Part shown: in pieces, positions 4,646 through 32,889 of the stretch
Position numbering within the stretch: the stretch's first letter is position 1
How the letters are laid out: each line of letters begins with the position of its first letter
Origin: Acidobacteriota bacterium
GTDB lineage: Bacteria > Acidobacteriota > UBA6911 > RPQK01 > JACQSY01
Direction of reading: 5' to 3'
Length of the DNA: 35,081 nt
NCBI GenBank assembly: GCA_016211085.1
Contig: JACQSY010000120.1
Location: 1-35,081 of the forward strand
The notes under the pieces: generated by a model
Seen by the model: the letters and a program-made list of their open reading frames with translations, nothing else
The model's database searches: none
Told to the model about the DNA's origin: nothing
Made by a program: the position numbers and the translations under genes

Positions 4646-5074
4646 TCAGCGGATTTCAGCGGCACTTTTAAAGACATAATTCTCGGAAATAGATGAATAA
4701 AAAGCCATGCCCAGGAACCTCAATTTGCCGTCCGGCAAAGCGCTTCCGGTCCAAACGCTGGAGTGCCGGTCCTTGCCGACCACGTCCTGCACGTCATAAA
4801 GCGCATCCAAAGTACGCATGCGCAGCGCCTCTGAGGAGGCAGGCTCCTCGCTGAGCACGATGTTTACACGCAGGACACTCCCGTCAGCCTGAACACTGTG
4901 GACTTGATAATCCTCATGAAGATCTTGCTGGAGGCGACGTTCAATCTCCGTCAAATCCTCCGCAGCGGGCTGCTCATCGGGAGAGGTCCGAAAGATGCTG
5001 TAGAAGATAAGAACCGGAAGGCCCACGGCAAAGAGGATCATGACAACAGCTTTGTAAAAGCCCTTCCAACCCAT
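4646..5074 (-). CDS. Small membrane-anchored protein of unknown function at the head of the gcv operon
   Basis: I do not recognise this 142-aa protein. It has a short basic start (MGWKGFYK), one hydrophobic segment at about 9-28 ending in FYSIFRTS, an acidic region rich in glutamate at 30-55 and a mixed alpha/beta remainder. With the single N-terminal anchor, the C-terminal 110 residues probably lie outside the cytoplasm. It ends 11 nt before gcvT in the same direction, so it is probably co-transcribed with glycine cleavage, but a link to that pathway is only positional. A promoter-like site whose -10 ends 6 nt before the ATG suggests that it begins the operon, perhaps without a leader. Confidence 0.75.
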   Translation of the reverse strand: MGWKGFYKAVVMILFAVGLPVLIFYSIFRTSPDEQPAAEDLTEIERRLQQDLHEDYQVHSVQADGSVLRVNIVLSEEPASSEALRMRTLDALYDVQDVVGKDRHSSVWTGSALPDGKLRFLGMAFYSSISENYVFKSAAEIR

Positions 5075-5080
5075 GCGGCC

Positions 5081-5108
5081 AATATACTGAATTCATTGGA
5101 AAATACAA
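5081..5108 (-). promoter_or_regulatory. Predicted promoter of the gcv operon, leaderless type
   Basis: On the minus strand there is TTGTAT (5108-5103), a 16-nt spacer and TATATT (5086-5081). Six bases follow, then the ATG at 5074. A start site at the usual distance from the -10 would fall on the A of the ATG, so the mRNA would have no leader. The hexamers match the sigma70 consensus at 4 and 5 of 6 positions. It could be chance; only mapping of 5' ends would settle it. Confidence 0.45.
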
Positions 5109-5136
5109 GCCGACTGAGGGCAAGTCGAACCGCTCG

Positions 5137-7044
5137 CTAATTAAAGGAGGCGTGAACTCTTGAAGAGGAAGTTGCGTAATAACCCCGGCGTGTACGCACC
5201 ACTGCATCGGGACGATTCTTGATCCTAACGTCAATGGAACGCCATTTACCATCCCGTTCCCTGTGGGTGGAGTTGTAAGCCAGGGTGTACTGGATTCGAA
5301 GATCCTGGGCGATCTCGGAATAGGCTCCAGACAGGTCCTCGATCCGCTGTGGCGAGTAGAGCCGACCGCCGGTCTGCTCGGCGATCATTTCCAGCTGGCG
5401 GCGTGCTTCTTCATAAGCCAGAGATTCGTCGCGGTCACGGGGACCACGGCCTCCCGGATTATAGGGGGGAAGTCTCCCCAAAAGAATGTCACCCAGAATG
5501 TCGGCCAGTCCGCCGCGTGAACCGCCCCGTCGAAAGACAACGTCCTCTTCAGTATCCAGCAAGATAGGATAAATCATGGACTCGGTTTCCTGGATGTCAC
5601 GGTAAAGCTCCTGGAATCCAATTTGCGAGCCGTTCTGATAGTCCCCGGTAAATTGATTGTCTACCCCATCCGTGAAGACGACCACCGCTTTACGGCCATG
5701 AATCTTTCGCATGTAATCGGTTACCGACTCGTGCAGGGCATCATAAAATGCAGTTCCACCCCCTGACCTGATTTTATCAATTGCTTCGCTTATTCGCTCC
5801 CGGCTCCCGGTAAAATCCTGGAGCAGCCGTGTTCTTGAATTGAAGACTGCTAATGCAATCTGGTCGTTTTCCTTGATTTGACGCGTGAACGAGATGGCAG
5901 CCTTCTTCATCAAAGAAAGATATTTTTGAGTGCTGCCGCTCACGTCGAGGAGGAGCAGGAGGTGGATCGGAGATTCGACCGGCTCAAATTTTTCGATCGC
6001 CTGCTGAACACCCTCCTCAAGAACGAGGAAGTCGTCTTTGGTAAGGCTGGATATGGCCCGGTTCGTCCGCCGCTCGCGAACCGAGGCATTTAAGTAAATC
6101 CAGTCCACATCAACCTTCAGGCTGTAGCCGGTATCGACGGCACCCCGTGCCGTTTCCACGGGCGCCGGAGATAAGGCTGGGCTGGACGTTGTCCCGGGCT
6201 GTGAAGTGACCGAGCCTGAAGAGCCTGGCTCCGGCACGGACTCTTTCTGGGAACGACCACCTTCCTTTAGAACGGTGGAAGGCTTTTCCTCTACTGAAGC
6301 ACGACCTGTTGAATGAGTCGCCGACGCGTCATCAACCATCGGGATCATGTCGAGAGAGACATCTCCCTGCAGGCTGGAGGCGTAGAGCAGGGGACCGCCT
6401 GAACCATATGATTGGCGAAGCTGCGGCTTCTTCTGCGGCCTGCCGTTTTGGTAAATGGTTCCTCCAGCTCTCAGCCACGCTTCTACTCCTGACTTCTGCG
6501 GGAGCGAGCAGAGGAGATTGCCCGTTACAGACTCCAGGCGCACGTCGTGTTGCGGCTGGATGGCGGTGCTGAAATGAATGTCTCCGCTATCACTCAATGC
6601 GGATACCGAAGCGTTGGTATTTTCGATGGAAATGGCACCGGTAAGGGTCTGTACCCTCAAGTGGCTTTTGAGTCCCTCGATTCTCACCTCTGGATTAGCC
6701 CCGCCGATCATCAGGCTGGTGTCATGAGGGACACGCAAGTTCAAATCCAGATAGCCGCCCTCATACTCGTAGTAGTATGTGTGAAGGAAAATTTTGTCTC
6801 GGGATTGAGCGGTGACCAGCACGATTTTATGCAGCACTTTTTCGTCAGGAGCGGTTTTGTGCGCTTCCACCACAACTGCAGCTTCGTTAGAAGCTCGCAC
6901 GGTAACCGATCCATAATCGTTCTGAATAATCAGACCAACAGGCCCCGAGACTTCAAAATTTGTGCGCTCAACCTGTTCAGCCGCGTTCAAAAAGGCCGCT
7001 GCCAGCGAAAGTACTGCGAAACCCGGCGGGATACGAATTAACAT
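5137..7044 (-). CDS. Secreted protein with DUF4097-like beta domain fused to a VWFA-related Acidobacterial domain
   Basis: This is a 635-aa exported protein. Residues 1-22 look like a signal peptide (FAVLSLAAAFLNAAE). About 28-235 is a repetitive beta-rich region with short strands such as GSVTVRAS, GAISIENTN, SGDIHFST and TGNLLCSL, resembling the DUF4097 putative-adhesin fold. A low-complexity Ser/Pro/Glu linker spans about 240-305. From about 308 comes the VWA domain with an intact metal site: DVSGS 367-371, T431 in GGTAFYDAL and D459 in FTDGVDNQ. The C-terminal part ends with the RTRRGYYA signature shared with the other three VWA proteins here. The role is probably extracytoplasmic binding, but the ligand is unknown. 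It is divergent from the next gene with only about 40 bp between starts. Confidence 0.85.
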   Translation of the reverse strand: MLIRIPPGFAVLSLAAAFLNAAEQVERTNFEVSGPVGLIIQNDYGSVTVRASNEAAVVVEAHKTAPDEKVLHKIVLVTAQSRDKIFLHTYYYEYEGGYLDLNLRVPHDTSLMIGGANPEVRIEGLKSHLRVQTLTGAISIENTNASVSALSDSGDIHFSTAIQPQHDVRLESVTGNLLCSLPQKSGVEAWLRAGGTIYQNGRPQKKPQLRQSYGSGGPLLYASSLQGDVSLDMIPMVDDASATHSTGRASVEEKPSTVLKEGGRSQKESVPEPGSSGSVTSQPGTTSSPALSPAPVETARGAVDTGYSLKVDVDWIYLNASVRERRTNRAISSLTKDDFLVLEEGVQQAIEKFEPVESPIHLLLLLDVSGSTQKYLSLMKKAAISFTRQIKENDQIALAVFNSRTRLLQDFTGSRERISEAIDKIRSGGGTAFYDALHESVTDYMRKIHGRKAVVVFTDGVDNQFTGDYQNGSQIGFQELYRDIQETESMIYPILLDTEEDVVFRRGGSRGGLADILGDILLGRLPPYNPGGRGPRDRDESLAYEEARRQLEMIAEQTGGRLYSPQRIEDLSGAYSEIAQDLRIQYTLAYNSTHRERDGKWRSIDVRIKNRPDAVVRTRRGYYATSSSRVHASFN

Positions 7045-7086
7045 TGGTTTTAAGAGTAGATGACGAATCTGTACATTTGTTTCAGA

Positions 7087-7947
7087 ATGGCGTACTTAAG
7101 TGACGCAGCAAAAGCATGCTGGTTGGGGTTGTGGATGTTCTTACTGGTCCCAAACCTCCTATGCCAGGGTGTTTCCGGCTGTCGTTTTCTTTACCTCTCC
7201 GACCAGCGTATTGCGACGGTTGAGCTCGTGAGTGATCATGAGGCAATCCTGAATTATTTTAATTTAAAGGATGACTACGAAGTCATCCAGGCCCCTTACT
7301 TGGTGATCCAGTTTGAAAACGAGGCTGCTTTAAGGGGGCATGTTATTCAGAACGAGCGTCCATCATCACCCCCGCAGAAATACCAAGTGCATGATCTGCT
7401 CAAGCCGCGTGACTACCGTGGGTTTACAGTGCTTGGGAACTTCCGGAATCCGTCGAACTGCCGTCAGGCGTTCTTAAAGGTAGGATCGCAAGTCCTCGAG
7501 CTTGAGCCCGTAGAAGAAGAGGAATTTGGCCTAACGGAAGCCCGCGTGGGACGACTAGACCTCCAGTCTGAAGACAGGGTGGGGATGATCGAGAACGCCG
7601 GTTTCACCCGCGGCTACGGAACAATTCACCCGGTAGGAAGCGAGACATTTTCGAGGTTGGAACGATTGTTTCCGGACCTGGAATCGATTGCGCCGTTGGT
7701 CTTGAAAAACCCACCTCCGCGGCTGCCAGATCGACACCCTTCTGCAGATACCGTGCTGGTAAAGGTCAAGGGGCTCGTGAATCGTGAAGGGGGGATTTTC
7801 GACCTCAAGGTGCTCGACGAGGTGGAGCCTGATCTAGGCCAGGCAGCGGTGGAGACAATACGCAACTCCTGGGTATTTCTACCGGCAATTTCAAAAGGAG
7901 AGGTTGCGGAGGCTGAAGTAACCCTTAATGTGGTTTTTCAGAAATAA
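7087..7947 (+). CDS. Secreted protein with a TonB C-terminal-like domain, function unknown
   Basis: The product from the ATG at 7087 is 286 aa. An ATG 27 nt upstream is in frame, but it lies only 15 nt from the divergent start and adds nothing useful to the signal peptide. The N-terminus has a hydrophobic stretch (WLGLWMFLLVPNLLCQG), consistent with export. The middle is unrecognised. The last 70 residues (VLVKVKGLVNREGGIFDLKVL, then AAVETIRNSWVFLPA and a final strand) match the shape of the TonB C-terminal domain often found in Acidobacteriota periplasmic proteins. There is no TonB membrane-anchor/proline-rich architecture, so it is not TonB itself. It converges on hemD, with 9 nt between stops. 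Confidence 0.7.
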   Translation: MAYLSDAAKACWLGLWMFLLVPNLLCQGVSGCRFLYLSDQRIATVELVSDHEAILNYFNLKDDYEVIQAPYLVIQFENEAALRGHVIQNERPSSPPQKYQVHDLLKPRDYRGFTVLGNFRNPSNCRQAFLKVGSQVLELEPVEEEEFGLTEARVGRLDLQSEDRVGMIENAGFTRGYGTIHPVGSETFSRLERLFPDLESIAPLVLKNPPPRLPDRHPSADTVLVKVKGLVNREGGIFDLKVLDEVEPDLGQAAVETIRNSWVFLPAISKGEVAEAEVTLNVVFQK

Positions 7948-7956
7948 ACGAACACT

Positions 7957-8757
7957 TTATTGCGACTCTACATGCTTTGAAAAATATTGCTCGATTGACC
8001 GGACAAAGTCAGGAATGGTCGCCTGCTCAGGCTGGACCACCACGTTAAGTCCGAGTCGACGGGCAGTATCTCCGGTAACCGGTCCGATTGCGGCAAAACG
8101 AAAAGCCCCAGGTGGTTGTCCTTCCAGCAGCGTCAAAAAATTCTCCACCGTAGAAGAGCTGGTAAATGCAACCAGGTCCGGAGCCTCCTTCTCAAGCACC
8201 TTCGCAAGCACGGGACCGCTCTCGGGTGGAATCACGGTGTCGTAAAGGGCGAGGACCGTCATTTCCACTCCAAATTCCTGAAGCTTTAACGGAAGCAAAT
8301 CCCTGGCGCGGCTGGCCCTGGCCAGCAGGACCTTCAAGCCCTTCACGTGGCCCTGGTGCAGGCTCATGAAGTCCTCCAATATGCCCTCAGCCTGATAGAT
8401 CTTGGGCAGGAGAGCTACTTTTTGGCCGTGCTCTTCAAGGACGCGGGCGGTAGCTGGTCCGATGGCACAAATTCGCACAGCGGCAGGGACGGAAAAGCCG
8501 GCCTCGGCAAGATACAGGAGGAAAATCTCTGCCCCGTTAGGACTGGTCAGTATCAACCAGTCGTACTCAGCCAGGCGGCTCAGCACAGGGAGAACCTCAA
8601 GGAGAGGCCTGGCTTCGATCTCGATGGTCGGGGCCTCCACTACCCTGGCGCCGGCTTTCTCCAAAAGCTCGCGAAAGACCTTGGATTGGGCGGACCGGCG
8701 GGTGATTAAAATGGTACGGCCCTTGAGTGGAGATTGCGGAGACGGTGGGCGATTCAT
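7957..8757 (-). CDS. hemD: Uroporphyrinogen-III synthase
   Basis: HemD closes hydroxymethylbilane into uroporphyrinogen III with inversion of ring D, and is the last enzyme encoded in this hem operon. The 266-aa product has the expected pattern for this poorly conserved family: RTILITRRSAQSKVFRELL near the start, DWLILTSPNGAEIFL at about 66-80, CAIGPATARVLEEHG, and LVAFTSSSTVENFL with FAAIGPVTGDTARRLGL in the second half. The order after hemC supports the call strongly. Its ATG overlaps the hemC stop (ATGA). It ends 9 nt from the convergent secreted-protein gene. Confidence 0.93.
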   Translation of the reverse strand: MNRPPSPQSPLKGRTILITRRSAQSKVFRELLEKAGARVVEAPTIEIEARPLLEVLPVLSRLAEYDWLILTSPNGAEIFLLYLAEAGFSVPAAVRICAIGPATARVLEEHGQKVALLPKIYQAEGILEDFMSLHQGHVKGLKVLLARASRARDLLPLKLQEFGVEMTVLALYDTVIPPESGPVLAKVLEKEAPDLVAFTSSSTVENFLTLLEGQPPGAFRFAAIGPVTGDTARRLGLNVVVQPEQATIPDFVRSIEQYFSKHVESQ

Positions 8758-10933: not shown

Positions 10934-10937
10934 AAGT

Positions 10938-11741
10938 TTAGAAGCGGTGCAGCCCGCTGAAGTATCCAACCCCGAGAAAAGTGACCAGAACTGAAATAAA
11001 GCCCACGATGCTGATCAAAGCGGCTCGGCGGCCGCGCCATCCTGCGGTCACCCGAAAGTAAATTAAGATCAAATAAATGCACCAGGTGATCATGGCCGCC
11101 ACGACCTTGGGATCCCCATGCCACCCCGAAACCCAGTCCTTTTCGGCCCAGGCAACGCCTGCAAGCAGCCCCAGCGTCATGAAGCAAAAACCGGAGATGA
11201 GAAATCTATAAAAAAGCTCGTCCAGCAGGACCAGAGAGGGAAGGCGGTAATAAAAAGTCTTGGGCTTCTTGGTTTTCAATTCCTTCTCCTGAAAAAGGTA
11301 AAGCAGCCCCGCAATAAAGGTGACAAAAAACATCGCATATGCAAAAAACAAGAGCGTCGTATGAACGTAAATCCATGTGCTGCGCAGGACATCCGGGACC
11401 GGCGACGACTGGAGAAAGGCTGTTCCCAGCATTAACGCGGCAACCAGCGGCAGCAGAAAAAGACCGAGGGCCTTTATCCGGTAACGCGCATACGAAATGA
11501 AGAAGCAAAGCGAGACAGTCCAAGCCAGAAAGGCCAGAGAGTCCCTTAGGTCCGTCATCAAGAGTCCGGATTTTTCCACCGCGTGGTCCACCAAAAATCC
11601 GGTGTGCAACGCAAACCCGATCCCCACAGAGATGATGGCCACCCTGAAGAAGAGATCCTTTTTTGAAACAAAGGCAACCACACTGTGGAAGAGGCCGATT
11701 GCGTAAAACCCAAAACTGGCGTTCCACAAAAGCGTATCCAT
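10938..11741 (-). CDS. HemX/CcsA-like polytopic membrane protein of the hem operon
   Basis: From the ATG at 11741 the product is about 267 aa with roughly eight hydrophobic helices. It belongs to the cytochrome c assembly (CcsA/ResC/HemX) superfamily: near 200-220 it has AGVAWAEKDWVSGWHGDPK followed by AMITW, an imperfect version of the haem-handling WWD motif in which the last tryptophan is replaced. Conserved-looking histidines occur in LHTGFLVDHA and YVHTTLLFF. It heads hemA-hemC-hemD. In Bacillus a related HemX sits beside hemA and limits HemA levels, so a HemX role fits the position better than cytochrome c ligation, but both remain open. An extended -10 promoter with TATAAT lies just upstream. 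An in-frame GTG at 11795 would add 18 residues upstream of that promoter. Confidence 0.82.
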   Translation of the reverse strand: MDTLLWNASFGFYAIGLFHSVVAFVSKKDLFFRVAIISVGIGFALHTGFLVDHAVEKSGLLMTDLRDSLAFLAWTVSLCFFISYARYRIKALGLFLLPLVAALMLGTAFLQSSPVPDVLRSTWIYVHTTLLFFAYAMFFVTFIAGLLYLFQEKELKTKKPKTFYYRLPSLVLLDELFYRFLISGFCFMTLGLLAGVAWAEKDWVSGWHGDPKVVAAMITWCIYLILIYFRVTAGWRGRRAALISIVGFISVLVTFLGVGYFSGLHRF

Positions 11742-11750
11742 CGGTCGATC

Positions 11751-11759
11751 ATTATAGCA
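11751..11759 (-). promoter_or_regulatory. Extended -10 promoter of the hem operon
   Basis: The minus strand reads TGCTATAAT, a perfect extended -10, ending 9 nt before the ATG at 11741. The predicted leader is 0-3 nt. No good -35 is visible, which is tolerated when the TGN extension is present. The divergent protease promoter lies about 50 bp away, so both may share regulation. Confidence 0.6.
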
Positions 11760-11805
11760 CCAGAAGAAAGGTCCCTCTGAGCAGGTCTTAAACACTGCGA
11801 CTCCG

Positions 11806-11814
11806 TGATATCAT
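11806..11814 (+). promoter_or_regulatory. Extended -10 promoter of the site-2 protease gene, leaderless type
   Basis: TGATATCAT is an extended -10 (TGN plus TATCAT, 5 of 6). Exactly six bases separate it from the ATG at 11821, which places the expected start site on the ATG. No convincing -35 was seen. There is no Shine-Dalgarno sequence in the six bases. Confidence 0.5.
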
Positions 11815-11820
11815 TGCCCG

Positions 11821-12471
11821 ATGGACCTGGGCTTTGATCCAGCGGTGCTGCTCATTAATTTGGTCGTGCTGCTTTTGTCATTGAGCATTCACGAATCTGC
11901 GCATGCGTGGGCGGCGGATCTCTGCGGCGACTATACCGCACGTCTGATGGGACGGGTCTCCCTGAATCCCCTGGTCCATATTGACCCCATAGGGACCGTG
12001 TTGTTTCCGCTGGTCAGCGCCGTGACGGGCGTCCCGCTCTTTGGTTGGGCCAAGCCGGTGCCGGTCAACACCACGAAGTTAAAAAACCCCAAGAGGGATC
12101 ATCTGTTGATTGCAGCGGCTGGTCCCGGCAGTAATATCCTGGCCGCTGTAGTTTTTTTGATTGGTCTAAAAATCATCTTGTCTTTCTTTGCTATTCAGGT
12201 GCTGACAAATCACGCCGTTGTTTACCCGCTTTATCTGATTTGCAGCGGAGGTCTGGCCATTAACCTGGTTCTGGCCGTTTTTAACCTGATTCCAATTCCT
12301 CCCCTGGACGGCAGCTGGATCCTTTCCGGATTACTACCCGATCAAGTTTCCGGTCTGATGGATTTTATTCGCCCCTATAGTTTTCTCTTGCTCATGCTGC
12401 TGCTCTGGAGTGGCTTTCTCGGTTTACTCCTGCGCCCCGTACTGATTCTCGTTCAGGGATTGGCTCTTTAA
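11821..12471 (+). CDS. Site-2 protease family membrane metalloprotease (M50)
   Basis: This 216-aa intramembrane zinc protease is of the short, PDZ-less M50 group. The metal-binding HExxH is HESAH at 24-28, inside the first hydrophobic segment. The third ligand is D163 in NLIPIPPLDGSW. The conserved GWAKPVPVN sits at about 75-83, and there are about five hydrophobic segments in all. The substrate is unknown. Short proteases of this type commonly precede scpA-scpB-rluB, as here, 93 nt upstream of scpA; the reason for that association is not known. The ATG directly follows a predicted extended -10, so the mRNA may be leaderless. Confidence 0.93.
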   Translation: MDLGFDPAVLLINLVVLLLSLSIHESAHAWAADLCGDYTARLMGRVSLNPLVHIDPIGTVLFPLVSAVTGVPLFGWAKPVPVNTTKLKNPKRDHLLIAAAGPGSNILAAVVFLIGLKIILSFFAIQVLTNHAVVYPLYLICSGGLAINLVLAVFNLIPIPPLDGSWILSGLLPDQVSGLMDFIRPYSFLLLMLLLWSGFLGLLLRPVLILVQGLAL

Positions 12472-12564
12472 GACTTGTCGCCTCGCGGAAAGACACGCCT
12501 GGGTCGTTTTTATCAGCAGCCGCACAGACAACGAAGCGTCAGCCTCGGCCGTTAAGATGAAGCC

Positions 12565-13281
12565 ATGAATTCTGATCCAGAGACATACAAGGTACGACTG
12601 GAGATATTTGAAGGGCCTCTGGATCTCTTACTTCATTTGATCCGTCAACAGGAGATAGACATCCATGATATTCCCATAGCGAAAATCACGGATCAGTACC
12701 TTAACTATCTTCAGATGATGAAAGATCTTAATATCTCCGTCGCGGGGGAGTTTTTGCATATGGCAGCGACGCTGATTTATATCAAATCGAGGACATTGCT
12801 TCCGCCTGATCCGGTTGCCTCAGGTCAAGAGGAAAGCGAAGATCCGCGCCGCGAACTGGTGGAGCAGTTAATCGAGCATGAAAAATTCAAGAAAGCAGCT
12901 CACATGCTTTATGAAAAGGAAACAGTAGAGCTGGCAAGCTGGCCCACCGGTTTAAATGAATTCGAGGAAGAGGAGAAGGAAACGGTTGTCGTCACTCTCT
13001 TTGACCTGGTGAGCGCCTTCCATCGAATCGTAGAGCGTTACAAAGAGCAGGTAGTGATGGACGTACACCATGAGTCGGTGACCCTTGAGGAAAAACTGGC
13101 CGAGATCCGTTGCTTACTGAAGGTGCAGGCGCAGTTCTTCTTTTCATTTTTTCTCCAGCACCGCATCTCCAGGCTTCACCTAGTGGTCACTTTTCTCGCC
13201 CTGCTGGAGTTAGTGCGGCTGAAAGAGGTGCGCCTGTTTCAAAAAGCGCCTCATGACGATATTCGAATTGTGGCATGTTGA
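12565..13281 (+). CDS. scpA: Segregation and condensation protein A
   Basis: ScpA is the kleisin that bridges the SMC heads in the bacterial condensin complex. The 238-aa product has the diagnostic N-terminus (EIFEGPLDLLLHLIRQQEIDI), then IPIAKITDQYLNYL and AGEFLHMAATLIYIKSRTLL. The middle is charged, and the C-terminal winged helix (FLALLELVRLKEVRLFQ) is present. No Shine-Dalgarno is visible; a weak TAAGAT at 12553-12558 ends 6 nt before the ATG, the same spacing as at the protease gene. The end overlaps scpB by 7 nt. Confidence 0.96.
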   Translation: MNSDPETYKVRLEIFEGPLDLLLHLIRQQEIDIHDIPIAKITDQYLNYLQMMKDLNISVAGEFLHMAATLIYIKSRTLLPPDPVASGQEESEDPRRELVEQLIEHEKFKKAAHMLYEKETVELASWPTGLNEFEEEEKETVVVTLFDLVSAFHRIVERYKEQVVMDVHHESVTLEEKLAEIRCLLKVQAQFFFSFFLQHRISRLHLVVTFLALLELVRLKEVRLFQKAPHDDIRIVAC

Positions 13282-13910: not shown

Positions 13911-14204
13911 GTTGAATTCTTGCCGACGTGGATTGGGCGCGAAATCGCGAAAGGAGGAGGGATCCAGACGGGAACCATTGCTGAGAGGAGAGGGTTTGGC
14001 CGTAGCCTCTGGAGCCGGTCCCTCGGTTTCGCGAGGCTTTTCCGGGGGCAAAGTGGCTTCTAATTTCTCCCTTCCCGGCACCGAGTCCTTCCCTATCTCC
14101 GGCGGGTTCTTCGATCAGATCCGCATCGGCTACCTGGAACGTCGCTGCCTCGCACGGTGCAGTGGGTTTTCTCCTATAGAGTTTTTGGACTTATACTGAT
14201 TCGG
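13911..14204. other. Gap of 294 bp between scpB and rluB
   Basis: No gene is supported here. A plus-strand reading frame runs through it, and a short minus-strand frame is proline- and serine-rich, but neither has a recognisable domain or ribosome site. The sequence holds CGCGAAATCGCG, a near palindrome, and GC-rich stretches. At its end TATACT (14192-14197) lies 7 nt before the GTG used as the rluB start, a possible -10 for a leaderless transcript. Confidence 0.4.
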
Positions 14205-14915
14205 GTGCTGCAGCGACTCCAAAAAATTATTGCCGCGGCGGGCGTCACATCTCGAAGAAAAGCCGAGGAATTGATCCTCCAGGGTCGGGTAACGGTCAAC
14301 GGACGCGTTGTTCGCGAACTTGGCGCGCAAGCGGATGCCCAGCATGACCATATCAAGGTCGATGGTAAGCTGCTTCGCCCGGAGCCTCTGGAGTACTACG
14401 CGCTCAACAAGCCTCGCGGGGTTCTCAGTTCTGTCTCGGACCCGGAAAACCGGGCAGTGGTTACGGCCTTTATCAAGACGAGTGCACGTCTCTATCCCGT
14501 GGGTCGGCTGGACTACCATAGTGAAGGTTTGATTCTGCTGACCAATGACGGGCAGCTTGCCCGACGGGTCACCCAACCAGGGCAAGTGAGAAAAGTTTAT
14601 GAAATCAAAGTTAAAGGTTGCGCCGACTCAAAAAAGCTTGAAAAGCTCACACGGGGAATGATTATCGATGGCGAGAGGCTTCAGGCGCTGGATGCGAAAA
14701 TCTTGAAGGTCGGTGAGAACTGCTGGTATAAAGTCGTGCTGGTTCAAGGGAAAAATCAGCAACTTCGTCGAATGTTTGATCAGCTGGGCCACGCCGTTCT
14801 GCGCTTGCGGAGAGTCGCAATTGGTCCCGTCGAACTGGGGAAATTGCCCGTCGGAGCGTACCGAAAGCTGACCTCAACTGAAATCAGAGAACTTCGTGGC
14901 GACAGGAAAAAGTAA
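14205..14915 (+). CDS. 23S rRNA pseudouridine synthase, RluB/RsuA family
   Basis: This enzyme converts specific rRNA uridines to pseudouridine. The N-terminal S4 domain is clear (LQRLQKIIAAAGVTSRRKAE, then GRVTVNGRVVREL). The catalytic aspartate is D103 in PVGRLDYHSEGLILLTNDG, and GKNQQLRRMFDQLGHAVLRL is the C-terminal family motif. I start at the GTG at 14205 because the family begins almost at the S4 motif; a GTG at 14157 would add 16 residues of no known match. The length is 236 aa. Its position after scpA-scpB is the classic one for rluB, but which rRNA site it modifies cannot be told here. ribE begins 14 nt downstream. Confidence 0.93.
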   Translation: MLQRLQKIIAAAGVTSRRKAEELILQGRVTVNGRVVRELGAQADAQHDHIKVDGKLLRPEPLEYYALNKPRGVLSSVSDPENRAVVTAFIKTSARLYPVGRLDYHSEGLILLTNDGQLARRVTQPGQVRKVYEIKVKGCADSKKLEKLTRGMIIDGERLQALDAKILKVGENCWYKVVLVQGKNQQLRRMFDQLGHAVLRLRRVAIGPVELGKLPVGAYRKLTSTEIRELRGDRKK

Positions 14916-14929
14916 ACGAGGCCGATGAA

Positions 14930-16126: not shown

Positions 16127-16160
16127 CCCGCAGCTCGGTTCGCTGCTGACGCAGGTTATG

Positions 16161-17339: not shown

Positions 17340-17816
17340 ACCCTTGCAATTTCTGGATTCGCAATTGAGTCTGGTAACTTAATCCTCTCAAGCTTAATCA
17401 TTCGAAACTGCGAACTGCCACCGTGCGCGTTGATAAGATCGCTATGGATTTGCGGACAGAGGAATCGTATACCAGACGCACAAGGGAAGAGTGATTCTAC
17501 ATGCGCTTGCAGGTGTCCAAGGTTCCCCCAGGTTGAACTGGCCGGCTATTATTCATGTGCCGCGTAAGCGTCTCTTCACAGTATCGGAGCCGCGCGTGTC
17601 ACAGACGCCGGTCTAGCAAGGCGCCTTCTAGTAGCTGCGCGGCAGAACAGAGCCACGACCGTGAGGGAGTGGCCCTGGAGCCTTTGGCTGCGGTGCCGCT
17701 TGCTGGTTGGGAAGCTCGATATCCGCCCGTTCCACACAGATCCTATGTACATGCGGTGGGCCGTTTTCCGAATTACAGGGAAGGACGGGGTCCGAGCATG
17801 GTAAAATTTAATTACT
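17340..17816. other. Gene-free stretch of 477 bp upstream of the YtxH-like gene
   Basis: I see no convincing protein or tRNA gene. The direct repeat TCGCAATTGA occurs at 17323-17332 (within the end of the preceding gene) and at 17359-17368. Short stems are possible, such as GCCAC 17652-17656 with GTGGC 17669-17673 and AGCC with GGCT just after it, so a small structured RNA is conceivable but not identified. The last 18 bases hold the promoter-like TGGTAAAAT (17799-17807). Confidence 0.4.
17799..17807 (+). promoter_or_regulatory. Extended -10 promoter of the YtxH-like gene
   Basis: TGGTAAAAT is TGN plus TAAAAT (5 of 6). It ends 9 nt before the ATG at 17817, so the leader would be only about 2-3 nt. 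No Shine-Dalgarno sequence lies between them. Confidence 0.4.
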
Positions 17817-18062
17817 ATGGAAAAGAAAGAATACCTGCTTTTGATTGGGCTAGGTGGTCTCGTAGGAGCGGCTCTGGCACTGCTTGTCACTCCCTATAAT
17901 GGGCGAAGGACCCGCAGGGGACTCAAGAGGGTGACGGGCAAGATGACGCGAGGGGTGGGCGAGCTTGCGCGTGACGTAAATCATCAGATGTACAGCCTCA
18001 TGGACGACCTTGTGGAAACAGGTCAAGAAATCACGCGAAAAGCAGTTGCACGCTTCCGTTGA
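17817..18062 (+). CDS. YtxH-like small membrane protein
   Basis: This 81-aa protein has a short basic start (MEKKEY), a glycine-rich hydrophobic helix at about 6-24 (LLLIGLGGLVGAALALLV) and then TPYNGRRTRRGLKR, which matches the YtxH pattern of a glycine helix followed by P-x-x-G-x-x-T-R. The rest is an amphipathic helix of about 50 residues. YtxH-type proteins are often linked to stress or envelope functions, but no biochemical role is established. It is followed 98 nt later by another small gene in the same direction. Confidence 0.78.
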   Translation: MEKKEYLLLIGLGGLVGAALALLVTPYNGRRTRRGLKRVTGKMTRGVGELARDVNHQMYSLMDDLVETGQEITRKAVARFR

Positions 18063-18680: not shown

Positions 18681-19715
18681 TCAATCAAGTTTGGACTTGG
18701 GGGCAAGATAGCCTTCTCGGTGCTGGACCTTGAGCTGCTCCGGCTTACCATCATTATTCAGATCAGCCAAAGCATCCACTTTGATCTTGCGAAATTTGCC
18801 ATCCCTTTTTTTGTTGGTCGATACGTAAGCCAGTGTGTACTGGTGTCGTAAGAATTTCGCAATGGTGTCGAAGATGTTGTTAAATTCTTGCGAAAAGCGG
18901 GGGAAAAAAGCTTCTCCGCCTGAGTATCGGGCAAAGGCTTTCAAAGTGGCATCGGCCTGGTAGAAATCCATACGGGCGCTGTCTGAAATGAAAGGGTCGT
19001 AACGCAGCCTGAAATTCCCGCCAATGCTCACGGGATAAATCACCACTTCGGTCTTCTTGACGCGCTCCAGTGTCTTGTCCAGGTTTGCCTTGCTGAAAGT
19101 GTCCAGCCCTGAACTGACGAGGACCACCGCCGTCTTGCCCTCATTTTCCTCCAGGCGATCCAGCGTATCGATCAATGCATCGTACAGATTGCTTTCTCGA
19201 AAACCAGGATAGTTCAGGCGGCGCAGCGCGCCGTGAATTTCTGCTTTGCTTTGAGTAAAATCTGCGAGGATTTCCGGCTTGATGTCATACGCGACGACCG
19301 CTGTCCAATCTTCAGAGCGGAGCTGATCGACGAATGTGTAAGAGGCAAGTAGCACCTCATAAAGAAATTCCCAAGGGAGCACATTGCTGTATTCGACGAG
19401 CAACACGGTGGTCATGGGCGCTTCATTAGGAGTAAAGTTGGTGATTTCCTGCGGCACCGAATCTTCAGCCAAGTGGAAATTTTCCTTCGTCAGCCCCTGG
19501 ATTAAATTGCCGTCTTTATCCTTGACCACTACATCCACGCGGACCTGTTCTACTGCAACGCGAAGGCTGGTCTGACCCTTAGGCTTTTCTACCGGCTCCT
19601 CAATCTTCTTTTCATCCCGATCGTTAGGGTTGCCGGACTGTTGCCACTCTGCCTGCAGGAACGCTGACAAGACCAGAGCAGAAGTAACAAACAAAGCCAC
19701 AATAAATCGCTTCAT
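18681..19715 (-). CDS. Secreted VWFA-related Acidobacterial domain protein with a degraded metal site
   Basis: From the ATG at 19715 the protein has 344 aa, a signal peptide (MKRFIVALFVTSALVLSAF) and the same overall plan as the other VWA genes: VRVDVVVKDKDGNLIQGLTK, a VWA core and a C-terminal REGYLAPKS. The metal-binding residues are mostly changed. In longer numbering (GTG at 19727), the DxSxS position reads EYSNV at 112-116, the threonine of TALYDAI is N180 and the aspartate of TDGED is S206. It therefore probably does not bind metal in the usual way. An SD-like GAGGAAG lies about 11 nt from the ATG. It is transcribed away from larE. Confidence 0.83.
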   Translation of the reverse strand: MKRFIVALFVTSALVLSAFLQAEWQQSGNPNDRDEKKIEEPVEKPKGQTSLRVAVEQVRVDVVVKDKDGNLIQGLTKENFHLAEDSVPQEITNFTPNEAPMTTVLLVEYSNVLPWEFLYEVLLASYTFVDQLRSEDWTAVVAYDIKPEILADFTQSKAEIHGALRRLNYPGFRESNLYDALIDTLDRLEENEGKTAVVLVSSGLDTFSKANLDKTLERVKKTEVVIYPVSIGGNFRLRYDPFISDSARMDFYQADATLKAFARYSGGEAFFPRFSQEFNNIFDTIAKFLRHQYTLAYVSTNKKRDGKFRKIKVDALADLNNDGKPEQLKVQHREGYLAPKSKLD

Positions 19716-19757
19716 TGGAAAACCCACTTCCTCTATGTTAGATGCCTCGCACCCAGA

Positions 19758-19891: not shown

Positions 19892-19921
19892 TTGAAGCCC
19901 CTTTTCGGCCGGTGTTAGAAT
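19892..19921 (+). promoter_or_regulatory. Predicted larE promoter, leaderless type
   Basis: TTGAAG (19892-19897), an 18-nt spacer and TAGAAT (19916-19921, 5 of 6) preceded by the TGN extension TGT. Exactly six bases follow, then the GTG at 19928. The start site would fall on the GTG. Confidence 0.5.
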
Positions 19922-19927
19922 CTGAAG

Positions 19928-20785
19928 GTGCCCCTCAACGAAGCCCTTCAGAAAAAAGAAGAAAAGTTACGAACTTTCTTAAAGCAATTTAATCGCGTCA
20001 TTGTTGCTTTCAGCGGGGGCGTCGATAGCTCATATCTGGCTTTTATTGCTCACGCTGTCTTGGGTGCTCGCGCTCACGCCGTGACAGCTCTGTCGCCCTC
20101 CGTGTCCGAATTTCAAAAGAGACAGGCGCTGCGCTTTGCTCATTCCTTCAACCTGAACCATACAATCATCTACACGGAAGAGATGCAGGACACGCGGTAT
20201 ACAGCCAATCCAGCCAATCGATGCTATTTTTGCAAAACAGAATTGTTTCGAAAGCTGGCGATTTTCAAAAGAGAGTGGCGTGTTGACGCCGTCCTTGACG
20301 GAAGCAACACGGACGATTTGGTTGATTTCCGCCCGGGCCGACAGGCGGCGTATGAATCTGAGGTCATCAGTCCTCTGGTTGATGTGGGAATGAACAAGAA
20401 AGATATCCGCGCGCTGTCCGCCGCCTGGAATCTCCCCACTTGGGATCAGCCTTCTATGCCGTGCCTCTCCTCGCGCTTCCCATACGGAACAACCATTACT
20501 GATGAAAAGCTCCGGCAGGTTGATCGAGCGGAAAGCATCCTTCGTGATCTAGGTTTCCACACTTTTCGTGTGCGACACCATGACAACTTGGCACGGATTG
20601 AGCTGAGCCGAGCTGAATTTTCTCGCCTCCACGGGGAACTTTTCGAAAAAATCGACCGGGCGCTGCGCTCCCTCGGTTATCGATATGTCACACTCGACCT
20701 CCGGGGGTTTCGCTCGGGTTCCCTCAATGAAGAGCTGGCCGAGACGGCATCGACTCAAGATGCATTGACTCAAATTGATGAGTAA
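19928..20785 (+). CDS. larE: LarE-type ATP-dependent sacrificial sulfur transferase
   Basis: LarE activates pyridinium dicarboxylate mononucleotide with ATP and donates sulfur to it during synthesis of the nickel-pincer nucleotide cofactor of lactate racemase. The PP-loop is SGGVDSSYL at 29-37 and the product is 285 aa. Three cysteines stand out: C99 and C102 in NRCYFCKTELF and C179 in SMPCLSSRFPYGTT. The last is probably at the position of the sacrificial cysteine; the three together resemble LarE versions reported to hold an iron-sulfur cluster instead of consuming a cysteine. GTG is the start, with no Shine-Dalgarno. No larA, larB or larC lies in this window. Confidence 0.9.
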   Translation: MPLNEALQKKEEKLRTFLKQFNRVIVAFSGGVDSSYLAFIAHAVLGARAHAVTALSPSVSEFQKRQALRFAHSFNLNHTIIYTEEMQDTRYTANPANRCYFCKTELFRKLAIFKREWRVDAVLDGSNTDDLVDFRPGRQAAYESEVISPLVDVGMNKKDIRALSAAWNLPTWDQPSMPCLSSRFPYGTTITDEKLRQVDRAESILRDLGFHTFRVRHHDNLARIELSRAEFSRLHGELFEKIDRALRSLGYRYVTLDLRGFRSGSLNEELAETASTQDALTQIDE

Positions 20786-22622: not shown

Positions 22623-22737
22623 CTTATTCAACAGAGCCCCGAAATGCAGGTCAGTAAGCACTCACGCCCACACTGGCAGGAGCCTTTTTGTACTCTCGCT
22701 TCGGAAAAACCCACCGTGGTTGCGTTCTCAAATTCCT

Positions 22738-24084: not shown

Positions 24085-24093
24085 GGGAAATGG

Positions 24094-27142: not shown

Positions 27143-27253
27143 CACGGCCCCACCAAAGTATACCCGCAGCAACTGTCAAAGAAGGGTGAAGAAGGTGCAT
27201 AGTCCCGCAACTTATAGGTGCGGTAAGAAATCAGAAACATGCTCCGTCACCTC

Positions 27254-27378
27254 CCCCGCGCCCTCCTCCTGTACTCCGTCCCCAAAATTCTCCCCCAAAA
27301 TTCTCCTCCCCTAAATTGCGGCTTTTCTCCGCTTCAAGTTCCGGGGACGGAGTACGGGGATGCCGGGAGGGCGCGGGG
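27254..27378. repeat. Long imperfect hairpin (REP-like) between slt and amidase genes
   Basis: GTACTCCGTCCCC (27271-27283) pairs perfectly with GGGGACGGAGTAC (27343-27355). Further out, 27254-27267 pairs with 27365-27378 at 13 of 14 positions. The loop holds tandem CCCCAAAATTCTCC units. The left arm shares its core with the repeat at 18490-18530. It could attenuate transcription between the two hydrolase genes or be a REP-type mobile repeat; no T-run follows the stem. Confidence 0.65.
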
Positions 27379-27428
27379 ATGGCGGATGTATTTGAAAACA
27401 GGACGCTCAGGTCCGGAAGTAGGCAGCT

Positions 27429-28070: not shown

Positions 28071-28124
28071 GCAAACCTAGGATGCCTGAAGTTGAAGAAA
28101 GACGAAAGTGATAATTAACACAAA

Positions 28125-30770
28125 TCAGGAAAGGAGTTCCCCCACCACCTGGTAGGTTTGCTCGAGAGCTTGGTCCAGATGGGAAGGGTCCTTACCGCCG
28201 GCCTCAGCCATTTCGGCACGTCCCCCTCCACCGCCCCCTACCAGGGGAGCAATCTTCTGCAACAATACGTTGGCTTTTATACGGTCTGTCAGGTCCGAAG
28301 TGACCATGGCGATCAAACTGACCTTACCGTCGGCTGGCATTCCCAGCACGACCACGCCCGAGCCAAGCTTATTTTTGAGTTGATCGGCCAGCGTGCGCAG
28401 ACCGTTTTTATCGAGATTTTCAACTTTTTGGGCCAGCACGCGCACGCCTTTAACCTCTCGAGCGGCCTCGGAAGCGCGCGAGCTTTCCTGACGCGCCAAT
28501 TGAAGACGCAATTCTTCGATTGTGCGGTTTGCCTCTTTCAATTCACGCAGGACGCGCGTGGTAACCCGCTCCAGTTCCTCACGCCGGCTTCGCAGTTCCT
28601 CGCTCAGGCGCTTTAGGAGAAGCTCATCTTCCTGGAAGCGCGAAAGGGCGACCTCCCCCGTGAGGGCCTCAATACGTCGGACGCCTGCAGAGATTCCACC
28701 TTCATCGACAATCTTAAAAACCGCGATGTCTCCGGTTCTCTGAACGTGTGTCCCACCGCACAATTCGGTGCTGAATCCCGGAACTTGCACGACACGCACC
28801 TTGTCCTGATATTTTTCGCCAAAGAGTGCCATGGCGCCCCCTTTTAGGGCCTCCTCGAGTGGTTTTATTTCGGTGCGGACACCAATGTTCTCCAGGATCT
28901 TTTGATTGACCAGCTCTTCGATTTCCTGAATTTCTCGAGTGGTCAGGGGCTGATAGTGGGTGAAGTCAAAGCGAAGGCGCTCAGGGGCCACCAGTGATCC
29001 GGCTTGTTTGACATGCTCTCCGAGCACCTGCCGGAGCGCCGCATGAAGCAGGTGAGTGGCGGTATGATTGCGAGCTGTACTGAGCCGGAGCGATGTGTAA
29101 ACGTTGGCACGCACCAGATCGCCTGTATGGAGGATGCCGCGTTTGACTTCCACGCGGTGGACGCGAATTCCGCTCACGGGTGATGAAACCTCCAGGACGT
29201 CAGCGTGCATCTTTTCGTTTTCCACTACCCCCCGGTCTGAAACCTGGCCTCCAGCTTCGGCATAAAACGGACTCCGGTCTAGGACTAGTTCTCCCGCCTC
29301 GCCTGCCGCCAGCGAATCCACACGCTTCTCATTGCGAATCAGCGCCAGAACGCGGCCGGGGACGTCGTGGATTTCTGTGTAGCCGGTAAACTCAGTGGCG
29401 AGCTTTTCGCTGGCGAGTTCCTGGTATACCGGCTTGACGGCTTTCTCTGCTCCCTTCCAGCTAGCGCGCGCGCGTGCCCGCTGCTTTTCCATTTCCTGGA
29501 GGAACCCTTCCTCATCCACTTCGAACTGGCGTTCGGTAGCGATTTCGTATGTGAGGTCGAGTGGGAAGCCGTACGTGTCGTAAAGACGAAAAACCTGCTC
29601 TCCCGGCAACCGGCGCTGGCCGCGCTTCTGAGCTTCGGCGAAAATCTCCTCGAGCATCTGCATTCCATACGTCAGGGTGGTGCTGAATTTCTCTTCCTCA
29701 TTGCGTACGATTTTCGAAGCGTAATCCCTGCTGTGCTGGAGTTCCGGATAGGCTTCTTGCATGAGTTCCGCCACGAGCGCGGTAAGCGTGAAAAAAAACG
29801 GTTCGTTTTTGCCCAGCATCTTCCCATGGCGGATGGCGCGCCTGAGAATCTTGCGGAGAACATAGCCGCGCCCTTCATTACCGGGAATCACGCCATCGTG
29901 TATGAGAAAGGAGCAGGCGCGGCTGTGGTCCGCCAGGATGCGTAAGCTGACATCGGATCCCATGCTTTCGCCGTAGGCCATACCGGTGAGACGCGAAGCT
30001 TCCTCGATGAGCGGCCGGAAGAGATCCGTATCATAGTTGCTCTGTACTCCCTGAAGCACGCAGCTGACGCGTTCCAGTCCCATCCCCGTATCTATTGACG
30101 GAGAGGGCAAGGGGGTGAGGGTGCCGGAAGCGTCGCGGTTGAATTGCATGAACACCAAATTCCAGATCTCAACATAGCGCCCACAATCACATTCCAGCGT
30201 GCATTCGGTGTGTCCTGAAGGACTGTTGCCAAAGTCATAATGTAGTTCTGAACAGGGTCCGCAGGGCCCCGTTTCCCCCATGCTCCAAAAATTATCTTCC
30301 TCGCCAAGTCGAAAAATACGCGATTCCGGAATACCGATCCGATCACGCCAAAATGAATAGGCTTCCACATCGTCGCGATAAACGGTGGTCAGCAATTGGT
30401 CAGGCGAAATTCCGTAGACAGTGGTGCAGAGTTCCCAGGCATATTCGATGGCCTCTTTCTTGAAGTAGTCTCCGAAAGAAAAATTGCCCAGCATTTCGAA
30501 AAATGTGTGATGGCGAGCAGTCCTGCCGACTGTTTCAAGGTCATTGTGTTTCCCGCTGACGCGCATGCACTTCTGACTGCTGGCGGCCCGCCTGTATTCT
30601 CTGCGCTCCCGGCCTAGAAACACTTCCTTGAATTGGTTCATGCCGGCGTTGGTGAACAGCAGCGTGGCGTCGTTTTCCGGGACCAGCGAACTGCTGTTGA
30701 CACGCCGGTGTCCCCGTTTTTCGAAATAGTCGAGAAAAATCTCTCTAATCTGGTTAGCAGTCTTCAACAT
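28125..30770 (-). CDS. alaS: Alanyl-tRNA synthetase
   Basis: AlaS charges tRNA-Ala. The 881-aa length and domain order are standard: the class II catalytic core at the N-terminus (IREIFLDYFEKRGHRRVNSS, LLFTNAGMNQFKEVFLG, GPCGPCSELHYD), the tRNA-recognition domain, then the editing domain with HTATHLLHAAL and ELCGGTHVQRTG, which carry its metal-binding residues. A glycine-rich C-terminal domain ends in VGGGGGGRAEMAEAGG. Every expected motif is present. No Shine-Dalgarno is obvious upstream of the ATG. It lies 42 nt after the pilT stop and may be in the same transcript as ilvE-pilT. Confidence 0.98.
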   Translation of the reverse strand: MLKTANQIREIFLDYFEKRGHRRVNSSSLVPENDATLLFTNAGMNQFKEVFLGRERREYRRAASSQKCMRVSGKHNDLETVGRTARHHTFFEMLGNFSFGDYFKKEAIEYAWELCTTVYGISPDQLLTTVYRDDVEAYSFWRDRIGIPESRIFRLGEEDNFWSMGETGPCGPCSELHYDFGNSPSGHTECTLECDCGRYVEIWNLVFMQFNRDASGTLTPLPSPSIDTGMGLERVSCVLQGVQSNYDTDLFRPLIEEASRLTGMAYGESMGSDVSLRILADHSRACSFLIHDGVIPGNEGRGYVLRKILRRAIRHGKMLGKNEPFFFTLTALVAELMQEAYPELQHSRDYASKIVRNEEEKFSTTLTYGMQMLEEIFAEAQKRGQRRLPGEQVFRLYDTYGFPLDLTYEIATERQFEVDEEGFLQEMEKQRARARASWKGAEKAVKPVYQELASEKLATEFTGYTEIHDVPGRVLALIRNEKRVDSLAAGEAGELVLDRSPFYAEAGGQVSDRGVVENEKMHADVLEVSSPVSGIRVHRVEVKRGILHTGDLVRANVYTSLRLSTARNHTATHLLHAALRQVLGEHVKQAGSLVAPERLRFDFTHYQPLTTREIQEIEELVNQKILENIGVRTEIKPLEEALKGGAMALFGEKYQDKVRVVQVPGFSTELCGGTHVQRTGDIAVFKIVDEGGISAGVRRIEALTGEVALSRFQEDELLLKRLSEELRSRREELERVTTRVLRELKEANRTIEELRLQLARQESSRASEAAREVKGVRVLAQKVENLDKNGLRTLADQLKNKLGSGVVVLGMPADGKVSLIAMVTSDLTDRIKANVLLQKIAPLVGGGGGGRAEMAEAGGKDPSHLDQALEQTYQVVGELLS

Positions 30771-30812
30771 GAAAATAGTAGAGGGGAGGATTGATCGTCC
30801 GAGTTGTGGTAC

Positions 30813-31904
30813 CTACACCGCCTCGGAAGAGCTGACCACACCCTGCATCCGTAATTTTAAATCATCCGGAGAACTGGCGTTTTTGAGAGCGTCGTTTAGG
30901 CTGATCAGCCCCTTTTGATAAAGACTGAGGATGGACTGGTCGAATGACTGCATACGGTACTGTGAGGCACCGGCTTCCAGAGCGCGCCGGATTTCCTTCG
31001 TCCTTTCCGGCTGGGCAATCAGGGAGCGGATCAGCTCGGTATTCCTCAAGACCTCCACCGCGGGCACCCGTCCGCCTGTCACAGAGCTTCGTATCAACCG
31101 GATGCAGATGATGGCTCTCAAAGCAGATGCAAACTGCAGACGTATTTCCGTCTGCTGGTGAGCGGGAAAAACCGTGACCATTCGGTTCACCGTCTCCACG
31201 GTGTCCGTGGTGTGCAGCGTGCTCATGACCAGATGGCCGGTTTCAGCAGCCTGAATAGCTGTGTGAATAGTTTCCACGTCGCGCATCTCTCCCACCATGA
31301 TCACATCGGGGTCCTGACGCAGCGCCGCGCGAAGGGCGGACCCAAAGTCCTCCGTGTCAATTGAAATCTCCCGCTGTGTAATAAAAGCGACCCGGTCGTG
31401 AAAGAGGAACTCGATGGGATCTTCTATTGTAATGATGTGCGAACGTCGCGCCTCGTTGATCTGACGGATCATTGCCGCCAGGCAGGTGGATTTTCCGCTT
31501 CCGGTGGTTCCGGTGACGAGAACCAGTCCCCGGGGTTCCTCTGCAATCTCCTCAAGAACCTCCGGAAGATTAAGTTCCCGCATCGTGGGGACCGTATCTG
31601 GTATGACACGGAACACCAGCGACAACGTGGTACGCTGATGAAAAACGGCAAGCCGAAACCTGCCCAGGCCATCACCGCCAAAAGAGAGATCTACTTCCAG
31701 CTTGCGCGCCAGCACCTCCTTTTGGTGCGAATTTAAAAGATGATCCACAAGATCAAAAGCATCTTCTTTAGAAACAACAGCTGTGTTGGCCAGGGGAAAC
31801 AGTTCGCCGTTGACTCTGAGATGCGGGAGCGCCCCGGACTTCAGATGAAGGTCAGAAGCCTTTCTTTCGACGGCTCTCTGGAGAAGAGATTTTAAATCGA
31901 TCAT
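30813..31904 (-). CDS. pilT: Type IV pilus retraction ATPase, PilT family
   Basis: PilT is the hexameric cytoplasmic ATPase that retracts type IV pili. The N-terminal half starts with DLKSLLQRAVERKASDLHLK and RVNGELFPL. The ATPase core has Walker A GTTGSGKST at 132-140, the Asp box IITIEDPIEF, Walker B DVIMVGEMRD at 200-209 and the His box HLVMSTLHTTD. The C-terminus (QYRMQSFDQSILSLYQKGLI) is also typical. At 363 aa the size is normal. The AIRNLI region is less conserved than in classical PilT, so a PilU-like role is not excluded. Its ATG overlaps the ilvE stop by 4 nt (ATGA), a curious coupling with an amino acid gene. Confidence 0.92.
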   Translation of the reverse strand: MIDLKSLLQRAVERKASDLHLKSGALPHLRVNGELFPLANTAVVSKEDAFDLVDHLLNSHQKEVLARKLEVDLSFGGDGLGRFRLAVFHQRTTLSLVFRVIPDTVPTMRELNLPEVLEEIAEEPRGLVLVTGTTGSGKSTCLAAMIRQINEARRSHIITIEDPIEFLFHDRVAFITQREISIDTEDFGSALRAALRQDPDVIMVGEMRDVETIHTAIQAAETGHLVMSTLHTTDTVETVNRMVTVFPAHQQTEIRLQFASALRAIICIRLIRSSVTGGRVPAVEVLRNTELIRSLIAQPERTKEIRRALEAGASQYRMQSFDQSILSLYQKGLISLNDALKNASSPDDLKLRMQGVVSSSEAV

Positions 31905-32854
31905 CTTCCGACGCTCTTTACCCGGGCTTCCTTATAGACATTGGTGAGCCATCCGTGCCGGTCTTCTACTTTGCCTTCGACGTAGTCAAAAAAATCGCGC
32001 TGTAAGCGTGCGGTCAGCGCGCCTTTCTTTCCGTTTCCAACTGGAATTCGATCCACAGAACGAACCGGAGTGATCTCGGCGGCTGTCCCACACAGGAAAA
32101 TTTCATCGGAAATATATAACATCTCCCGTGGAATTAATTGCTCAATTACTTCGTAACCACGTTCGCGAGCCAGTGTAAACACGGTATCTCGGGTTATCCC
32201 CGGAAGAATGGAGCTGCTTTGGGGCGGAGTATACAGCCTTCCGCGAAAGTTGAGAAAAACGTTTTCTCCACTCCCCTCGCTGACGTAGCCTTGGGTATCG
32301 AGTGCAATTCCTTCGGCGTACCCGTTCTGGACTGCCTCCATCTTGATCAAACCGCTGTTGATGTAATTTCCACCAGCCTTTGCCATCCACGGAAAAGTGT
32401 TTGGAGCCATTCGTGACCAGGTCGAAACGCACGCGTCGATGCCGGCATCCATTGCGTCCTCGCCGAGGTAGCGTCCCCATTCGTAGACAGCAATAAAGCA
32501 TTCTAGGGGAGCCTTTAACGGGTTTACGCCCAGGCTTCCGTAGCCCCGGAATACAATGGGGCGAATGTAGCAATGCTCCAGTTGGTTAACTCGAATGCAC
32601 TCCAGGATGGCCTGTGCGATTTCCTCCTGTGAGTAGGGGATCTCGGTGCGATAAATCCGGCACGAATCAAAAAGGCGCCGGACATGATCTTTCAGCCGAA
32701 AAACCTCGGAACCGCGAGTGTTCTTGTAACAGCGGATCCCCTCAAACCACGACGAGCCGTAGTGTAGCGCATGGGACATTACATGAACTGTCGCTTTGTC
32801 CCAGTCGATGAAATCGCCATTATGCCAGATTCTCTTTGATTTAAGATCGGTCAT
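31901..32854 (-). CDS. ilvE: Branched-chain amino acid aminotransferase
   Basis: IlvE is a fold-IV PLP aminotransferase that makes or breaks down valine, leucine and isoleucine. The PLP lysine is K159 in MAKAGGNYINSG. Other motifs are HNGDFIDWDKATVHVMSHAL and YGSSWFEGIRCY at the start, IRPIVFRGYGSLGV, and EGSGENVFL with ITRDTV and FLCGTAAEITPV in the second half. At 317 aa the length is normal. It overlaps pilT by 4 nt and has a strong predicted promoter with the start site on the ATG, so it leads the operon. Confidence 0.96.
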   Translation of the reverse strand: MTDLKSKRIWHNGDFIDWDKATVHVMSHALHYGSSWFEGIRCYKNTRGSEVFRLKDHVRRLFDSCRIYRTEIPYSQEEIAQAILECIRVNQLEHCYIRPIVFRGYGSLGVNPLKAPLECFIAVYEWGRYLGEDAMDAGIDACVSTWSRMAPNTFPWMAKAGGNYINSGLIKMEAVQNGYAEGIALDTQGYVSEGSGENVFLNFRGRLYTPPQSSSILPGITRDTVFTLARERGYEVIEQLIPREMLYISDEIFLCGTAAEITPVRSVDRIPVGNGKKGALTARLQRDFFDYVEGKVEDRHGWLTNVYKEARVKSVGR

Positions 32855-32860
32855 TCAATC

Positions 32861-32889
32861 AGGATAGTCACTTCCAGAAAATTGGTCAA
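32861..32889 (-). promoter_or_regulatory. Predicted ilvE promoter, leaderless type
   Basis: On the minus strand there is TTGACC (32889-32884, 5 of 6), a 17-nt spacer and TATCCT (32866-32861, 4 of 6). Six bases (GATTGA) follow, then the ATG at 32854. The -35 and spacing are close to the sigma70 ideal, and the start site would be the A of the ATG. Confidence 0.6.

Follow-up and report, generated by a model that had tools for sequence, protein, structure and literature searches.

The window analysed here is the whole of contig JACQSY010000120.1 (35,081 nucleotides; Acidobacteriota assembly GCA_016211085.1), in which several operon-leading genes are preceded by promoter-like sites whose -10-like hexamer ends only a few bases before the start codon. 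The first-pass annotation had named eight such sites, and all of them (8/8) were found in the window sequence at the spacings it gave, the gap being the count of bases from the hexamer end to the start codon. On the minus strand, the site of the ilvE-type aminotransferase gene (31901..32854; Aminotran_4 match) spans 32861..32889, with a -35 box TTGACC (32884-32889), a 17-nt spacer and a -10 box TATCCT (32861-32866) that leaves a gap of 6 to the ATG at 32854. The same gap separates the -10 box (5081-5086) of the TTGTAT-16-TATATT site (5081..5108, minus strand) from the ATG at 5074 of the gcv-operon-leading gene (4646..5074, minus strand), whose 142-aa product gave no match in a Pfam search, has no assigned family, and has relatives in 6/20 other genomes. 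On the plus strand, an extended -10 element, TGTTAGAAT (19913..19921), lies at gap 6 from the GTG at 19928 of the larE-like gene (19928..20785), a name taken from the first-pass annotation for a gene with weak NAD_synthase and Asn_synthase matches, and another, TGATATCAT (11806..11814), at gap 6 from the ATG at 11821 of the site-2-type protease gene (11821..12471; Peptidase_M50 match). A weak -10-like TAAGAT (12553..12558, plus strand) ends 6 nt before the ATG of scpA at 12565, a gene with orthologs in relatives, and TATACT (14192..14197, plus strand) ends 7 nt before the GTG of the rluB-type gene at 14205. The gap is 9 for the extended -10 element TGCTATAAT (11751..11759, minus strand), which precedes the ATG at 11741 of the ccsA-type gene (10938..11741, minus strand; Cytochrom_C_asm match) at the head of the hem operon, and for TGGTAAAAT (17799..17807, plus strand), which precedes the ATG at 17817 of an 81-aa gene called YtxH-like in the first-pass annotation.

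Domain matches fit the names of ilvE, the M50 protease gene, scpA, the rluB-type gene and the gcv and hem genes. The starts of ccsA and rluB were taken at 11741 and 14205, inside the longest open reading frames (which begin at 11795 and 14157, respectively), and both inner starts are backed by ortholog alignments. Note that ccsA and the M50 protease gene are transcribed divergently from starts separated by just 79 nt (11742-11820), with a promoter-like box beside each start; in one relative (G008; loci L227 and L306) the distance between the two -10 boxes is a mere ~23 nt, so that both promoters would compete. The first-pass annotation had also remarked that none of the eight gaps holds a Shine-Dalgarno (SD) sequence, which is correct but simply a consequence of their length of 6-9 nt, and that some other genes do have one, which holds for gcvH (GAGAGGA) and the RibBA gene (AAGGA) but hardly for the gene of the 63-aa protein, which has only a weak AGGGAA.

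We scored the position of TANNNT relative to start codons in a 1.76-Mb sample of the window's own metagenome-assembled genome (MAG), hereafter G000 (3.54 Mb, 152 contigs, 87% complete, with no 16S rRNA match). Genes were called with a custom program that sets starts by coding potential and by the type of start codon and ignores upstream motifs (motif-blind); it returned 1280 genes, of which the 127 at stretch ends were excluded and 673 are leading, i.e. next to a divergent neighbour or preceded by 60 nt or more of free sequence, transcription units being thus inferred from spacing alone. On one E. coli stretch used as a check, the program called 38/42 listed genes and placed 33/38 starts on the annotated codon. 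With a Poisson background drawn from the same genes at gaps 19 to 54, we observed TANNNT at gap 6 in 34/673 leading genes where 8.6 would be expected per position (P 5e-11), which is the peak ~12 nt upstream of operon-leading genes proposed in the first-pass annotation, and the peak is retained without the window (29/657 vs 8.4, P 2e-8). The background rate is ~1.3% per position and gene, and the peak also stands above the shuffled control, as 300 dinucleotide shuffles averaged 6.8 at gap 6 and never exceeded 15 there, nor 21 at any position. Genes packed no more than 15 nt behind another gene show no clear excess (4/288 vs 1.7, P 0.09). The pattern shares sequence features with the TA-like-signal class of bacterial leaderless genes: TANNNT lies ~12 nt upstream above chance, and it is carried by first genes, not by packed ones.

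The lower limit of the gap is sharp. For TANAAT at the 673 leading genes, a single case was found at gaps 2-5, as against 14 at gap 6 and 30 at gaps 6-11, a step that would be expected of a leaderless limit since a start codon less than 6 nt away would precede the transcript. Independently of gene calls, a scan of both strands found TANAAT-N6-RTG 59 times, where the other gaps from 2 to 20 average 33.7 (P 5e-5); the count in the reversed sequence is 32. The scan also showed a secondary peak at gap 19 (53 vs 33.7), which was dropped, as it is not present at the motif-blind starts.

The same test was applied to control organisms. On the Thermus plasmid pTT27, our positive control, 5 of the 61 leading genes carry TANNNT at gap 6 and another 5 at gap 7 for a background of 0.6, and the tightly packed genes show it too (6/72 vs 0.2 at gap 6). 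No gap-6 peak was found at the leading genes of the two negative controls, E. coli K-12 (0/82 vs 1.9) and Desulfobacterota loci (2/274 vs 5.8). The test detects a known leaderless lineage and is silent in two SD lineages. Two further sets are small or weak: named Acidobacteriota loci, with 3/155 leading genes at -12 vs 1.6 and 6 at -14, and a Granulicella plasmid, with 1/70 leading genes at gap 6 vs 0.6.

The pattern comprises gaps 7-11 and not gap 6 alone. Over gaps 6-11, TANNNT is found at 106/673 leading genes for ~51 expected from the background, an excess of ~55 (8%), and 29% of the leading genes of the sample carry an SD-like 4-mer. A box learned from these genes is TGNTANAAT-like, of the extended type, with 115/673 well-scoring sites, a number that includes chance matches and in which the box helped to choose the start. 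Of the mixture model fitted to these data only the shape is informative, with 3.2 genes at gaps 2-5 and 145 at gaps 6-11, against 50 and 71, and 76 and 43, in the two controls; the weight of its -10 class (0.35) was not used as a fraction, rotated controls giving 0.42 and 0.56. We also dropped as evidence the count of SD sequences between box and start, because at gap 6 the searched stretch cannot accommodate one. Within the window, gap-6 TANNNT is found at 5/16 leading genes with motif-blind starts, for ~0.2 expected from the background outside it, and the window is an unusually rich sample compared with the 29/657 elsewhere. The leaderless translation proposed in the first-pass annotation is partly supported, by the genome-wide peak and by the ortholog conservation described below, but the layout is estimated at roughly 8% of leading genes, judging from the excess, and is not systematic.

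To compare upstream regions among relatives, we used five window genes in up to 39 relatives, with no more than 30 loci per gene including the window's own; 56/61 loci from the same order and 77/83 from outside it were usable. Within the order, TANNNT ends 6-11 nt before the start in 45/56 loci (ilvE 12/13, larE 9/11, M50 8/8, ccsA 12/12 and rluB 4/12), whereas outside it the figure is 6/77, roughly the chance level (ilvE 0/15, larE 3/16, M50 1/17, ccsA 1/12 and rluB 1/17). With stricter -10 patterns, four of the genes give 40/44 vs 3/60. SD 4-mers at -18 to -4 show the reverse distribution, 5/56 within the order vs 36/77 outside, although a box at gaps 6-8 occupies part of this region and the two counts are not independent. 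Indeed, the box occupies the place where an SD sequence would lie, and a gap of 6-11 leaves little or no room for one.

The layout is conserved within the order at four of the five genes. The same-order ilvE orthologs have TANNNT at gap 6-8 in 12/13 usable loci, with TTGACTT upstream in most, and TTGAC and TATYCT are retained in most members of several same-order families while the flanking sequence varies; an SD 4-mer is found in 15/15 ilvE orthologs outside the order and in 0/13 inside. All eight usable same-order M50 orthologs (8/8) have the box at gap 6-7, each of them with GTG. For ccsA, the -10 box is found on both sides of the divide, at gap 6-11 in 12/12 same-order orthologs and at gap 20-27 in 10/12 outside.

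We also counted TGNTANAAT-N6/N7/N4-RTG over whole genomes, the N4 pattern serving as the control. The counts are 113, 120 and 47 in 17 same-order relatives (17, 25 and 30 for the patterns read backwards) and 121, 121 and 81 in 22 relatives outside the order (48, 66 and 77 read backwards). The order is the richer in these counts (P 0.016), and the outsiders also exceed the gap-4 control (121 and 121 vs 81, P 0.001), from which leaderless starts would not be confined to the order. In two relatives of family f4, G003 and G011, the numbers are small, with 4 and 1 at gap 7, 6 and 8 at gap 4, and 11 and 8 at gap 6. As to the position of the order, the best named relatives of the alanyl-tRNA synthetase come from Acidobacteriota MAGs (62% identity) and then from Bryobacterales (55-56%), and the larE and ilvE upstream sequences of the closest named Acidobacteriota MAG (L022) equal those of the same-order relative G013, which indicates that the order belongs to Acidobacteriota. 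Elsewhere in the 35-kb window, von Willebrand factor A domain matches are found in three separate genes (5137-7044, 18681-19727 and 33957-34853).

The best explanation of these data is, with high probability, that a minority of leading genes produce leaderless or nearly leaderless transcripts. A -10-like box, often of the extended TGNTANAAT type, ends at a gap of 6-11 from the start codon of these genes and would be used by the housekeeping RNA polymerase. The usual distance from a -10 box to the transcription start point is ~6-7 nt, and transcription is predicted from it to begin on the start codon or no more than ~5 nt before it. The mRNA, leaderless or nearly so, would likely be translated without SD sequence, with initiation on the 5'-terminal AUG or GUG by 70S ribosomes, or by 30S subunits with initiator tRNA and IF2; both routes on leaderless mRNA are known elsewhere, and GTG starts reportedly also occur in the leaderless transcriptome of Mycobacterium tuberculosis. 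Downstream genes of the operons would still depend on SD sequences or on coupling.

Several observations weigh against this explanation or narrow its reach. The first-pass annotation had expected the peak at operon-leading genes only; packed genes agree with this, but a gap-6 peak is also seen where 15-59 nt are free upstream of the gene (8/192 vs 1.7), and the restriction to leading genes is therefore not strict. If all plausible starts are admitted, the signal at gap 6 is diluted and nearly lost (24 vs 17.4, P 0.08; 29 vs 18.3, P 0.01). No enrichment of a -35 box was found at the 115 learned-box sites (1/115 at spacer 17), ilvE with its TTGAC box being an exception, and in G000 itself the strict TGNTANAAT pattern is no commoner at gap 7 than at gap 4 (2 each), with 7 at gap 6. 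The five ortholog sets were picked for the layout seen at the window gene, so that they give conservation and not frequency, and at rluB the layout is poorly kept, since only 4/12 same-order loci have it and 5/12 have an SD-like 4-mer. At unselected genes in the same ortholog loci we observed no peak, with 0/81 at -12 and 6 vs 3.5 expected at -17 to -12. A first comparison of loci inside and outside the order, strong at first sight, was rejected as circular, the neighbouring loci having held other query genes; nothing was left of it once these and the duplicates were removed, and because of the 0/81 that remained at -12 we do not claim order-wide generality from it.

A short motif such as TANNNT can be found at any distance from a start codon in a window of ~53% GC, and the background of ~1.3% together with the fact that the eight examples were chosen by the reader of the sequence could make the layout look like coincidence. 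This is barely credible: the excess is kept once the window is removed, two negative controls have no peak and orthologs conserve the layout, and the genome-wide peak, the shuffles and the TANAAT gap counts already contradict chance. The layout is above chance.

Two other explanations accept the boxes as promoters or leave them a minor part. If the start codons were misplaced, the true ones lying further downstream behind ordinary leaders, the short gaps would be an artefact of start calling, which is indeed imperfect when blind to motifs, as the E. coli check indicates. However, errors of this kind would blur the gap and not yield a step from 1 gene at gaps 2-5 to 30 at gaps 6-11, and two ilvE orthologs from outside the order (L174 and L177) begin at aligned residue 1, immediately behind an SD sequence, which fixes the same codon; we consider misplacement very unlikely. 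It is slightly less improbable, yet still unlikely, that expression comes mainly from promoters farther upstream with normal leaders, the near box being minor or inactive: this box is the conserved element across the families of the order, as with TTGAC and TATYCT at ilvE, and the SD 4-mer is rare at same-order starts.

Leaderless or nearly leaderless transcription at these genes also has a possible history. As the ccsA -10 box is kept while its gap goes from 20-27 outside the order to 6-11 inside, and as ilvE goes from 15/15 to 0/13 for the SD 4-mer, conserved operons may have switched together from SD-led to leaderless starts by loss of the 5' leader on the stem of this one Acidobacteriota order, a proposal that we put forward tentatively. 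The leader would have been lost on the way to the order, a direction judged from the outgroups. Leadered starts appear to have been replaced by leaderless ones at the level of the order, an apparent replacement drawn from selected operons and not from a genome-wide survey. Were it true and general, the order would be a natural experiment on changing the mode of translation initiation in bacteria, and its leader loss would offer gene-by-gene pairs for studying the change from SD-led to leaderless starts. More broadly, leaderless-type promoters are recognisable from sequence alone in an uncultured Acidobacteriota lineage, and the sharp spacing limit helps to place start codons, as here for ccsA and rluB.

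Our literature search for transcription start-site maps of Acidobacteria, including differential RNA sequencing (dRNA-seq), found none for the phylum in the literature collection searched. Leaderless genes were reported in all three Acidobacteria genomes (3/3) of an earlier survey, at 13.3% on average (9.7-19.4%), where TANNNT ~12 nt upstream is taken as a -10 box that leaves the 5' UTR missing or very short, and where it is argued that, in a polycistronic transcript, no gene but the first can be leaderless (Zheng et al, 2011; PMC3160421). The TANNNT motif ~12 nt upstream is common to both studies; here the box is TGNTANAAT-like, and the orthologs allow SD-led and leaderless starts to be told apart gene by gene. 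In Deinococcus-Thermus, a TANNNT adjoining the open reading frame at a specific spacing is described as the promoter of genes with no or very short leaders, and experiments in Deinococcus show leaderless genes to be driven by a box of this kind (PMC12340547); the likeness lies in the place of the motif next to the reading frame, and the differences in the experimental tests made there, as compared with predictions here, and in the proportion, ~30% of open reading frames there and ~8% of operon-leading genes, by excess, here. In M. tuberculosis, which belongs to a different phylum, start-site mapping revealed leaderless transcripts on an extensive scale (PMC3898074), whereas the 5' ends discussed here are predicted. 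Overall, leaderless initiation itself is already known from bacteria, Acidobacteria included, and what is new here is a single further lineage, together with an apparent order-level replacement at conserved operons.

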